Shown piece after piece: positions 59,197 through 63,687 of a stretch of DNA of 64,000 nt. The first letter of the stretch is position 1. Each line of letters begins with the position of its first letter. The stretch spans positions 62,001 through 126,000 of the forward strand of contig NZ_AAEW02000009.1 in the NCBI RefSeq assembly GCF_000167355.1, written 5' to 3'. The notes below the pieces were generated by a model. That model was given only the letters and a program-made list of their open reading frames with translations, made no database searches and was not told where the DNA came from. The translations under genes and the position numbers were made by a program. The DNA is from Desulfuromonas acetoxidans DSM 684. Its GTDB lineage: Bacteria > Desulfobacterota > Desulfuromonadia > Desulfuromonadales > Desulfuromonadaceae.

Positions 59197-59649
59197 ATGG
59201 AAGCACTGGATCAATTCAAACAATTTTTGCAACAGCGCGGACTGAAATTTACCCGTGAACGCGACAGGATTTTTCAGGCGATTGTCGATTTTGAGAAACC
59301 TTTCGATGTCGACGGATTGCTGTTTCATCTCAAGCAGCACGAGGTGAAGACGTCCAAAGCCACTATTTACCGGACGTTGCAGTTACTCCTTGAATCGGGA
59401 TTGCTGCGGACCATCAGCCTCTCGCCTTCGGATCATCGAAGCAATTTATACAGTTTATGCGGAAAATTTCGTGCCTACGATCATTTGGTCTGCACTGGTT
59501 GCGGTAAAGTGACCGATGTTGAAAAAAAGCAGATTTGCGACAGTTGCCGCCTCATTACTGAAGAGCGTGGTTATCAGTTAGAATCGCATAGTTTACGCAT
59601 CTTTGCCTTGTGTCCGGACTGTCAGAAAAAAGGACTGAGAGTCTGTTAG
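59197..59649 (+). CDS. Fur-family transcriptional regulator
   Basis: The 150-aa protein has the winged-helix DNA-binding domain (LKFTRERDRIFQAIVDFEKPFDVDGLL ... KATIYRTLQLLLESGLL) and a C-terminal dimer domain with two CxxC pairs (CTGCGKV and CPDCQKK). It lacks the usual His cluster before the DH of the second domain (KFRAYDHLVC, not HHHDH). It may thus be a Fur, PerR or Zur-like paralogue with altered metal sites; I cannot tell which metal. AATTGGAGG precedes the ATG. The flavoprotein gene follows after 32 bases. Confidence 0.9.
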   Translation: MEALDQFKQFLQQRGLKFTRERDRIFQAIVDFEKPFDVDGLLFHLKQHEVKTSKATIYRTLQLLLESGLLRTISLSPSDHRSNLYSLCGKFRAYDHLVCTGCGKVTDVEKKQICDSCRLITEERGYQLESHSLRIFALCPDCQKKGLRVC

Positions 59650-59681
59650 CAGGCATTGAAATCAACCATGGAGGGAACACA

Positions 59682-61031
59682 ATGAATACAACTGATGTGG
59701 CGATTATCGGCGGTTCTGCCGCCGGCCTGGCCGCTGCAACCACCCTGATGAGACGTTATCCTGAAAAACGGATCAGCTTGATCCGCAACGTAACTCAAAC
59801 CGTTGTACCGTGCGGAATTCCGTATGTGTATGGCACATTGGGCGCGGTGAATAAAAACATCATCCCTGACAACCAGTTTCGCGATGCCGGTGTGAATATC
59901 ATCACCAAACACGTTAACGTGATCGATCGTGATAACAAGGTTGTGGAATTTGATGACGGTGAGACACTTGGCTACGATAAGCTCATTCTTAGTACCGGTT
60001 CCAAACCGTTTTTGCCGCCGATTGACGGCGTTGATTTGACCAATGTGTTCTGCATCCACAAAGACCCTGCCCACTTGCAGACGATCCTCGATGCCCTCAA
60101 CCCGGCGCAGAATGTCGTGGTGATTGGTGGCGGATTTATCGGGGTGGAGATGGCCGAGCAAATTGCCCGCATGGAATCGCGCCCTGCCCATATCCGTCTG
60201 GTGGAGATGCTTCCTCACTGCCTGATGACGGCATGCGAGGAGGAATATTGTGTGGTGGCCGAAAAAGAGCTGGAACGTGAAGGGGTCGAAGTGATGACCA
60301 ATTGCCAGGTCAAGGCAATTCACGGTGATTCAGGCGTGCAGACCGTTGAGCTGGCCGACGGCAGGCAGCTGGATGCCGATGTGGTCGTGATCGGTATCGG
60401 TGCGGCACCGAATATTGAGTTGGCCGAGCGATCGGGTATTGCCTGTGATGCACGGGGTGGTGTCAAAGTGTCACGCACGTTGCAAACCAGTGATCCGGCG
60501 ATCTATGCCGCCGGCGACTGCGCGGAAAAATTCTCGTTTTTCAATGGAGAACCCAGTGCCATTCGCCTGGCGTCTATTGCCGCATCCGAAGGGACCATTG
60601 CCGCTTCAAACCTTTATGCCGACACACAGCGTGAAACTCTTGGCGCGCTCGGGGCTTTTGCAACGAAAGTGGGTACACGCAGCATTGCTGCAGCCGGGAT
60701 CACTACCCAAGCTGCCAAGCAGCAGAACCTTGATGTTGTTATCGGTGAAGCCGTTGCCTCCAACATGCATCCCGGTTCACTGCCCAATGCCATCGCCGAT
60801 ATGCGCGTGAAACTGATTTTTGAGCGTCAGACCGGTCGCCTGCTTGGTGGTCATGTCTGCGGTGGTGACAGTTCAGCGGAGTTGGCTAATGCCATTGCCG
60901 TGGCGGTCCAGGCCCAACTGACCGCGAATGACCTGTCCCTCATGCAGTACGCGACCCACCCGTTGCTGACCGCATCACCGGTGATGTATCAACTGATGGT
61001 TGCGGCGGAAAATGCCCTGATTCAGCTGTAG
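59682..61031 (+). CDS. FAD-dependent CoA-disulfide reductase / NADH oxidase-like protein
   Basis: The 449-aa pyridine nucleotide-disulfide oxidoreductase has an FAD motif IIGGSAAGLAAATTLMRR, the single redox Cys in VPCGIPYVYGTLG, STGSKPFLPPIDG, an NAD(P)H motif VIGGGFIGVEMAEQIA, and a second FAD motif YAAGDCAEK. Members include CoA-disulfide reductase, NADH oxidase and NAD(P)H polysulfide reductase. With the upstream Fur-family regulator it may serve redox or sulfur stress. ATG 59682 follows GGAGGG. Confidence 0.87.
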   Translation: MNTTDVAIIGGSAAGLAAATTLMRRYPEKRISLIRNVTQTVVPCGIPYVYGTLGAVNKNIIPDNQFRDAGVNIITKHVNVIDRDNKVVEFDDGETLGYDKLILSTGSKPFLPPIDGVDLTNVFCIHKDPAHLQTILDALNPAQNVVVIGGGFIGVEMAEQIARMESRPAHIRLVEMLPHCLMTACEEEYCVVAEKELEREGVEVMTNCQVKAIHGDSGVQTVELADGRQLDADVVVIGIGAAPNIELAERSGIACDARGGVKVSRTLQTSDPAIYAAGDCAEKFSFFNGEPSAIRLASIAASEGTIAASNLYADTQRETLGALGAFATKVGTRSIAAAGITTQAAKQQNLDVVIGEAVASNMHPGSLPNAIADMRVKLIFERQTGRLLGGHVCGGDSSAELANAIAVAVQAQLTANDLSLMQYATHPLLTASPVMYQLMVAAENALIQL

Positions 61032-61293: not shown

Positions 61294-61659
61294 ATGTACA
61301 CAAAACTCAGTAAACTCATGACGCTGTTTGGCCTTTGTGCCATGGGGTTCTATGCGATCATGCTGTCTTCCGGGCAGTTTTCAGTCGAAGTCCTACCGCA
61401 GTTCGCCCTGTCAGCGGTTTTTTTTCTCAGCTCGGGTCGGATGATGAAAAAGGTTGCCAGGAGGATTCGTGCTGGCCAATCCGAACAGGATGAAGATCAA
61501 GCCAATCGCATTGACCTGCAGTTGCTCAGTTGGGTAGTGGGCATCGCGCTCTTGATGGTCCTCAGTCTGCTTCTCCTCGTTCCATTTGGTGTAACCATTG
61601 AACATACTTATCTTTTTAAAGTTGCTCATCAACTTTTTGACAGCGCCTTAATCCCCTGA
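61294..61659 (+). CDS. small membrane protein of unknown function
   Basis: This is a 121-aa protein with three hydrophobic segments (LMTLFGLCAMGFYAIMLSS, FALSAVFFLSSG, LSWVVGIALLMVLSLLLLVPF) and a basic/acidic cytosolic loop (KKVARRIRAGQSEQDEDQAN) between the second and third. ATG 61294 is preceded by GGGAGG; the open frame extends to 61159 without a better start. I do not recognise the family. Confidence 0.6.
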   Translation: MYTKLSKLMTLFGLCAMGFYAIMLSSGQFSVEVLPQFALSAVFFLSSGRMMKKVARRIRAGQSEQDEDQANRIDLQLLSWVVGIALLMVLSLLLLVPFGVTIEHTYLFKVAHQLFDSALIP

Positions 61660-61807
61660 TAAACACTTTTTGCATTCCTGCAAAAAATCCTATTTGTGCC
61701 GACATAATTGCAAAACAAAGTTTTATTATATTGTGAATAACCATTCCGTTTCCCTGTCATTTGGGGAGTTTAAGCTGATGGCCTGTCGCAACGGATGGAG
61801 GCTTTCC

Positions 61808-61825
61808 TTGTTGCAACAATTGTTA
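61808..61825. promoter_or_regulatory. overlapping palindromes, possible activator site for the MFS promoter
   Basis: TTGTTGCAACAA is a perfect 12-bp palindrome whose right arm is the left arm of the 10-bp palindrome AACAATTGTT. It lies within enhancer range of the sigma-54-like promoter downstream. Binding protein unknown. Confidence 0.45.
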
Positions 61826-61962
61826 CGCCCTGTCCATTGATTTGCAAATCTGCGAAGTTGTTGAGATAAACGGGAATATCTGCGTTTTGTGTATACGTGG
61901 TGTTTTTCGGTAACTCTTTGTATTTACGCGGTTTTGCATAAAGTGTGTCATGTGCCCTGCTA

Positions 61963-61979
61963 TTGGTATACAGGTTGCT
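61963..61979 (+). promoter_or_regulatory. sigma-54-type promoter of the MFS gene
   Basis: TTGGTATACAGGTTGCT has TTGG at -24 and TTGCT at -12 with ten bases between GG and GC. Transcription would begin near 61990, 45 bases before the ATG at 62035. Confidence 0.65.
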
Positions 61980-62034
61980 AATTCTTCTGTGCAACGGCGG
62001 AAACGCTACAGCGACCGATGACGGTGGAGTAGTT

Positions 62035-63687
62035 ATGAACAACAAAGATGTGTGTCCCTATTTTCGCAAAGATGACGAAGCCTGTGATGTCGGCTCGGAG
62101 CATATTTCCAGCCATGACGTCATGATGATCATCAATTATTGCAATGGACGCTATCGGGAGTGTTCCAACTACCAGCTTCTCGCAGACGGTCTGGATCCCT
62201 GCCCGTCCAAGCCGTCGCTGATCACACCACCCGCCATACCAAAGGAAGCGCCGAGAGCTCATCATAAGGCAATGCGAAGGGTTCCCCCCTTCAGCGTCAA
62301 GTGGCCGAGTACCGTTCAGCTTCGTGCGATGACAGCTCAATACAATGAGAGTTTTAATTACACACAGGAGAACACGACCATGACTGACCAGATCAAGAAC
62401 AAAGGACTCACCGTGGTGCTTGCCGCGACCGGCATCAACCTCGCCCTGGGAATCCTTTATACGTGGAGTATTTTTAAAGGGGCCATCGCCGACTCCATTG
62501 CAGCGGGCGGACCCGGCGCTTTTACCTGGGATAAAGCTTCAATCAATGATCCCTATGCCGTTGCCTGTCTGGCGTTTGCCGTATCGATGATCATTGCCGG
62601 TAAATTGCAGCAGAAGTTCGGTCCCCGTCTCACCTGCATTCTCGGTGGTCTTCTTGTTGGTGCAGGCTTTGTGTGGATTTCCCAGACAACCAACTACTGG
62701 GCCTGGATCCTCGGTTTCGGCGTCATGGCCGGGATGGGCATTGGATTTGGCTACTCTGCGACAACGCCACCGGCCTTAAAGTGGTTTTCCCCGGCCAAAA
62801 CCGGACTGATCGCGGGTACGGTTGTGTCCGGCTTCGGGCTGGCGTCTATCTATATCGCGCCGCTGGCCAAACATCTGCTGGCCACCCAGGGGTTGCAGCA
62901 ATCTATGCTGATCTTTGGCATCGCCTTTGCGATTGTTGTCAGTCTGCTTGGCTTGTTGATCAGCAATCCGCCGGAAGGTTTTGTTCCCCAAGGTGCCGAG
63001 GTTGCAGCGAGTGCGGCTAAAAGCAGCAGTGTGGATATGACGGCGTCACAAATGCTCAAAACTCCCAAGTTTTATATCCTGTGGACCTGCTTCTTTATCG
63101 GCGCGGGTGCTGGGTTGATGGTGATCGGCAGTGCCAAAGGTCTGGCCAAGGCGTCCATGGGCGAAATGGCCTTTCTTGTCGTTGCCATTATGTCGGTGGG
63201 CAATGCCGCCGGTCGTTTAATTGCCGGGGTGGTTTCCGACAAGGTTGGACGCGCCAACACCCTGACCTTTATGTTGATGTTCCAGGCGGCATTGATGTTT
63301 GCTGCCGTGCCGGTTCTGGGCGGCAGTGACAGCAGCCCGATTCTGGTTGTACTGCTGGTCAGTTTTATGGTGTTTAACTATGGCACCAACCTGTCGTTAT
63401 TCCCGTCATTTGCCAAAGATCTATGGGGCGCGAAAAATCTCGGCATGAACTACGGTTTGCTGTTCAGTGCTTGGGGCGTCGGCGCCTTTGTCCTGGTGCG
63501 GTTGTCTCAGATGATGGTGGTGAAAACCGGCAGTTTTGATCTGTCATTTGAAGCGGCAGGAATCATGCTGTTGGTGGGTGCCGGTTTATCGCTGACCTTA
63601 CGTGCCAAGCAGGCCGTGGCAGAGGCGCCCCAGACCGAAGCTGTGCTTGACGAAGAGTACGACGAAGAAGATCTGCTGGTCGATTAA
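62035..63687 (+). CDS. OFA-family MFS carrier in frame with an N-terminal Cys-rich domain
   Basis: The frame from ATG 62035 (after GGTGGAG) encodes a Cys-rich segment of about 55 residues (CPYFRKDDEAC ... YCNGRYRECSNYQLL), a Pro/Ala-rich linker, then from residue 116 a 12-helix MFS protein of the oxalate/formate antiporter type (NLALGILYTWSIFKGAI, GMGIGFGYSATTPPALKWF, NAAGRLIAGVVSDKVGR). It ends in an acidic tail (DEEYDEEDLLVD). A second ATG at 62380 (MTDQIKNKGLT) has its own CAGGAG and gives an ordinary 435-aa carrier. The locus may make one fusion of 550 aa, a separate carrier, or both. The cargo, a carboxylate by family, is not determinable. Confidence 0.8.
   Translation: MNNKDVCPYFRKDDEACDVGSEHISSHDVMMIINYCNGRYRECSNYQLLADGLDPCPSKPSLITPPAIPKEAPRAHHKAMRRVPPFSVKWPSTVQLRAMTAQYNESFNYTQENTTMTDQIKNKGLTVVLAATGINLALGILYTWSIFKGAIADSIAAGGPGAFTWDKASINDPYAVACLAFAVSMIIAGKLQQKFGPRLTCILGGLLVGAGFVWISQTTNYWAWILGFGVMAGMGIGFGYSATTPPALKWFSPAKTGLIAGTVVSGFGLASIYIAPLAKHLLATQGLQQSMLIFGIAFAIVVSLLGLLISNPPEGFVPQGAEVAASAAKSSSVDMTASQMLKTPKFYILWTCFFIGAGAGLMVIGSAKGLAKASMGEMAFLVVAIMSVGNAAGRLIAGVVSDKVGRANTLTFMLMFQAALMFAAVPVLGGSDSSPILVVLLVSFMVFNYGTNLSLFPSFAKDLWGAKNLGMNYGLLFSAWGVGAFVLVRLSQMMVVKTGSFDLSFEAAGIMLLVGAGLSLTLRAKQAVAEAPQTEAVLDEEYDEEDLLVD

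Follow-up and report, generated by a model that had tools for sequence, protein, structure and literature searches.

A putative dual-start gene for an L-lactate-type carrier with and without a four-cysteine N-terminal head in Desulfuromonas acetoxidans

In the 64,000-nucleotide stretch of Desulfuromonas acetoxidans DSM 684 DNA analyzed here (the window), we uncovered a gene that probably employs two in-frame starts. One would yield a plain membrane carrier, and the other a longer version of it that additionally bears a cysteine-containing head, which is putatively regulatory and metal-binding. Its elements, all on the forward strand, are arranged as follows: The frame opening at the ATG at 62035 extends without a stop for 550 codons up to the TAA at 63685–63687, as read from the open frames of the window, and encodes the predicted long product of 550 aa (62035–63687), in which the Cys module, a linker and the carrier are joined. 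Its start lies 5 nt downstream of the Shine-Dalgarno (SD)-like GGTGGAG at 62023–62029, which is the weaker and more folded of the two sites (anti-SD duplex of −5.9 kcal/mol; fold of −13.5 kcal/mol around the start). There follow the four-Cys module with C7, C17, C36 and C43 (62035–62190; residues 1–52), the variable linker (62191–62280; residues 53–82) and, at 62281–62334, the segment PFSVKWPSTVQLRAM, for which conservation in 44 fusions gives the consensus F-x-x-K-W-P-L-x-x-R-L-R-Y (hereafter the KWP segment). The internal SD, AGGAG at 62366–62370, is embedded in frame within a Q-E pair (cag gag) and lies 9 nt upstream of the second ATG at 62380, from which the predicted short product, a plain L-lactate-type MFS carrier of the SfMCT family with 435 aa, would be made (62380–63687); residues 1–115 of the long product lie ahead of this ATG. 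The preliminary description of this DNA had noted that no stop separates the Cys-rich segment from the carrier, that an SD and ATG stand where a normal carrier would begin, and that the cysteines are spaced as C-x9-C and then YC-x6-C, all of which is borne out. Its further suggestion of a possible dual-start gene giving a fusion and a plain carrier gains support from related loci, where both the open frame and the second start are seen in 51 of 51 fusions.

These fusions were collected by searching 58 relatives with residues 1–115, whereby the module was found in 46, mostly within long open frames, and by adding further loci. The resulting set comprises 51 distinct Cys-carrier fusions, which the genome tables assign to 14 families of the order. 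No stop interrupts frame 0 of the linker in any of them, and the other two forward frames are open in just 8/51 and 11/51. Within the genus, dN is at least equal to dS in most pairs for linker residues 53–82, and dN/dS is about 0.01–0.05 for the carrier. That a nearly neutral stretch should nevertheless be devoid of any stop or frameshift is a mark of its being translated through into something useful. Moreover, relatives with a stop between the module and the carrier, or fusions lacking the second start, either of which the preliminary description had held to speak against two products, do not appear: none of the former was detected in the order, and the latter number 0/51. Taken at the level of sequence, these comparisons confirm that the fusion is real, more than a chance event and not confined to one genome.

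The second start is conserved in its own right. The carrier begins with an ATG and an SD-like motif in 49 of the fusions and with a GTG and GAGGAG in the remaining two, both of one genus; thus, a start codon with an SD is kept at this point in 51/51. The spacing of AGGAG from the start is 6, 9 or 12 nt, shifting by whole codons because the frame must be kept. When the codons ahead of the internal start are redrawn by each gene’s own codon usage (synonymous recoding), the five-base SD core is expected at the right distance in 18.5 of the 51 fusions, and is observed in 49, a comparison uncorrected for shared ancestry. Further, a scan of synonymous conservation in six genus members, using 516 windows of 12 codons along the gene, places its peak directly 5′ of the ATG at 62380 (0.87 versus a mean of 0.53; top of all windows). 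Across the fusions, the median anti-SD duplex energy is −9.1 kcal/mol for the internal start and −6.5 kcal/mol for the first start, with a mean of −2.2 kcal/mol for other in-frame ATGs; the internal start is the stronger one in 41/51, and also the less folded one (median RNA fold of −3.3 versus −6.9 kcal/mol). Hence, two in-frame start codons are present, each with a ribosome-binding site, and the conservation of both, together with that of the common frame, indicates that they are kept by selection. We infer that both proteins are made and that the long form is the minor one, outnumbered by the plain carrier, since the internal start is stronger and less folded. Many carriers from other parts of the phylum are devoid of any extension, their open frames mostly measuring 418–480 aa, which suggests that the short product should work alone. 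An internal promoter as the origin of this product is weakly disfavoured, as a scan of 61640–62450 for one detected no sigma-70-like site and no terminator, which is weak evidence.

Upstream of the internal SD, W90 of the KWP segment is invariant and F86 and P91 are nearly so in the 44 aligned fusions; a helix is predicted at residues 93–102 of this region with low confidence. Some carriers of the order, in which the Cys module has been lost or was never present, still show the internal SD together with the KWP segment, as seen in short in-frame extensions at the loci L148, L149, L150, L153, L154 and L158.

The position of the KWP segment just 5′ of the internal SD, along with its retention in carriers lacking the Cys module and the weaker, more folded nature of the first start, would be in keeping with a reading in which the internal start alone gives the carrier. 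Here, the upstream stretch would be a translated cis-acting leader, with ribosome traffic or a pause at the KWP segment gating the internal SD, and the long protein would be minor. However, the Cys module is a selected domain that is encoded by a separate gene elsewhere, and a leader should terminate at a stop in at least some lineages, which is the case in none; we hence consider this reading unlikely. Likewise improbable is the use of the upstream start alone, whereby the gene would specify a plain fusion and the internal SD and ATG would be a relic of a once separate carrier gene. Such a fusion would sit well with the always-open frame, with the selection on the module and with the absence of the internal start from some of the SatP fusions described below, but a relic should decay, and instead the strong SD stands in 49/51 fusions against the 18.5 expected, the one genus that swapped ATG for GTG kept a start codon, and synonymous conservation peaks at the internal start. 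A local artefact or a recent stop loss in the host genome has a negligible chance of being correct, given the identical open frame in dozens of independent assemblies from 14 families. The same observation rules out a sequencing error or a lone stop loss, and means that the reading frame needs no resequencing.

Under the favored dual-start reading, initiation at 62380, with its strong SD and little RNA structure, would furnish the usual carrier, with L-lactate or a similar monocarboxylate as its substrate, and initiation at 62035, with its weaker SD and more structured surroundings, would furnish the same carrier plus an N-terminal extension made up of the four-Cys module, a flexible linker and the conserved KWP segment. 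As the N-termini of MFS proteins are cytosolic, the extension can be expected to be cytosolic too. The module, which probably binds a metal ion or an Fe-S cluster, would be the head through which organic-acid uptake is regulated or sensed, in connection with a histidine kinase/NtrC-type regulator pair, and might either tune uptake or report transport to the kinase. The dosage of this Cys head is apparently set by the conserved inner start.

As regards its identity, the carrier starting at 62380 passes the NCBIfam model NF049980 (SfMCT, L-lactate MFS transporter) with 396.9 bits against a cut-off of 320 and fails the oxalate/formate models TIGR00890 (206.7 versus 374.85) and TIGR04259 (169.6 versus 335), and its earlier labelling as an OFA carrier is accordingly withdrawn. 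SfMCT binds its substrate through Y119, N276 and R280, and has H250 as its proton site (PMC6573034). On comparison with this Syntrophobacter fumaroxidans L-lactate transporter (PDB 6g9x/6hcl, with 6g9x being the nearest solved structure), Y119, N276 and R280 align with Y, N and R in the window carrier and H250 with a Ser, these matches to 6g9x having been read by eye off the printed alignment. The Ser in place of the proton-site His implies that substrate and coupling may differ. Thus, as far as the present evidence goes, the protein can be safely called only an L-lactate-type monocarboxylate carrier. To our knowledge, SfMCT has neither a Cys extension nor a second start upstream.

The module itself conforms to the pattern C-x9-C-x18-C-x6-C, with all four cysteines invariant in an alignment of 44 full-length fusions. 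Within the genus, its dN/dS is about 0.1–0.25 in most pairs with estimable dS, which indicates a protein domain under purifying selection. Searches of Pfam, NCBIfam and PDB by sequence matched it to no family or structure, and it was accordingly not assigned to any of the metal-binding or Fe-S small domains described there. AlphaFold models were of low confidence with both 44 and 99 alignment rows (pLDDT of 59.6 with the latter), and a Foldseek search with the weak model found nothing. In light of these results, it is the cysteine pattern that makes a metal or redox role plausible, with metal or Fe-S binding as the candidate function, and at such a pLDDT a single four-Cys site is likewise a candidate. 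The module may also regulate transport or signalling. At one locus (L151 in genome G043), the extension retains the four cysteines and lacks the CDVG core, and is possibly a decaying or diverging version of the module.

In Geobacterales, as well as in a small number of further families, the Cys module is encoded on its own by a gene of about 64 codons. In 47 such loci from named genomes, it is followed by a gene for a small membrane protein, TM83 (45/47), by one for an undescribed 350-aa membrane protein, M350 (42/47), and by a distinct, co-oriented gene for an SfMCT-type carrier (22/47), thereby realizing the arrangement of a stand-alone Cys segment before carriers that the preliminary description had envisaged. 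The split order in Geobacterales is, hence, the Cys gene, two membrane genes and the carrier, with the Cys gene often being the first in an operon that the carrier gene closes. Several loci additionally feature a dCache histidine kinase and a sigma-54 NtrC-type regulator 5′ of the stand-alone gene. These neighborhoods, along with those described below, indicate that the module is associated with both organic-acid carriers and a kinase/NtrC pair. Being a separate gene in Geobacterales, the module also has a role that is directly testable there by a simple knockout. Downstream of the stand-alone Cys gene of Geobacterales, the 350-aa and 83-aa membrane proteins recur as a conserved pair (L172–L239, and also L066:5276–6325 and L066:6347–6598, both on the minus strand), for which no Pfam or NCBIfam match was found; M350 was not found in the window’s order.

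A second copy of the module is encoded in the same genome (contig C4, L292:905–1725, minus strand), where it is fused to a SatP acetate carrier (NF038013, 279 bits against a cut-off of 50) and lies directly behind an orthologous pair of a histidine kinase and an NtrC-type response regulator (HK-RR pair). SatP/AceTr_1 acetate uptake transporters (GPR1/FUN34/YaaH) are a carrier family unrelated to the window’s MFS carrier with which this copy shares the Cys module; thus, the module has been joined to two carrier families. The SatP fusion of this genome also displays an internal AGGAG and ATG. SatP fusions of the families f13, f15 and f18 mostly lack an internal start, which implies that an inner start is no automatic feature of such fusions and that a dual start is not required for every module-bearing carrier. 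A further connection is seen in seven SfMCT carriers from three families outside the class, in which the Cys module resides in an in-frame extension and an internal SD and start are again present. In six of the seven, a helix pair with an H-box is discernible by eye between the Cys module and the carrier, and all four of the extensions that were scanned pass the Pfam HisKA cut-off of 26.9 (34.6–52.6 bits), without a HATPase. One of the seven (L261) has an HK-RR pair directly upstream. Quite apart from the gene order in Geobacterales, the HisKA domain within the extension connects the module with two-component signalling. The HisKA-bearing carriers are L251–L256 of the families f69, f109 and f118 of the phylum, with the internal SD and start at the carrier. 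No HK-RR pair adjoining the carrier gene was identified within the window, and neither HisKA nor HATPase_c was found in the extension or carrier of the window gene.

Extending these observations, we tentatively propose that an undescribed, phylum-wide four-Cys signalling module works with a dedicated kinase/NtrC pair to set the activity of organic-acid carriers or to read them, and that its dose might be set by the conserved second start such that only a fraction of the carriers act as sensors. Such a system could amount to a transceptor created by a choice in translation rather than by a separate gene. The joining of a carrier to a signalling part, as in L251–L256, has parallels in the transceptors CbrA and CrbS (SLC5-STAC-HK; PMC7096432, PMC9100948) and in the anammox Amt-HK sensor (PMC5764959). 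Unlike in these, the signalling part is N-terminal here, the carrier is of the MFS or SatP type, there is no HATPase in frame, and the window copy is without HisKA. The CbrA-type fusions of a transporter with a histidine kinase were, hence, rejected as the class of the window gene, whose chain lacks HisKA and HATPase_c, with its relatives featuring HisKA only.

Precedents exist both for dual-start genes and for fusions of transporters with kinases. In bacterial dual-start genes such as ClpB and HrcQ (PMC6168691, PMC8553256), one frame with two starts likewise gives a full-length and an N-terminally shortened product; relative to these, the present case differs in involving a membrane transporter, an undescribed four-Cys extension, and split and fused states in related orders. 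The present system stands apart in that its Cys head is placed N-terminally on two unrelated carriers and that sister lineages have a split form. In open-access PMC text, we found no paper on this system, including among work on Cys-rich N-termini of Geobacter acetate transporters and on transporters with dual starts. Since annotation pipelines settle on one start per gene, they do not readily reveal conserved dual-start genes; in the present case, both products are indicated by three separate signals, namely the open frame over a neutral linker, the synonymous conservation around the internal SD and the split form in sister orders. Bacteria that respire metals and electrodes receive electron donors through these carriers, and the module offers a testable candidate for what couples donor uptake to redox or metal state.

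The nearest named relatives with a Cys-carrier fusion are Desulfuromonas assemblies, the host genome itself being 3.8 Mb in size. In the window, the gene is preceded on the same strand by one for a 121-aa, weakly TctB-like membrane protein (61294–61659), a counterpart of which precedes the fusion in the genome G008 (L267), and further upstream by one for a protein of the FAD/NAD disulphide oxidoreductase type (59610–61031), which in G008 is likewise found beside the fusion locus. Elsewhere in the host genome (contig C29, L003:1477–2613, plus strand), a protein that appears GAF/PAS-like by eye bears a related N-terminus of the form C-x9-C...FC-x6-C, suggesting a wider family of Cys heads on sensors.
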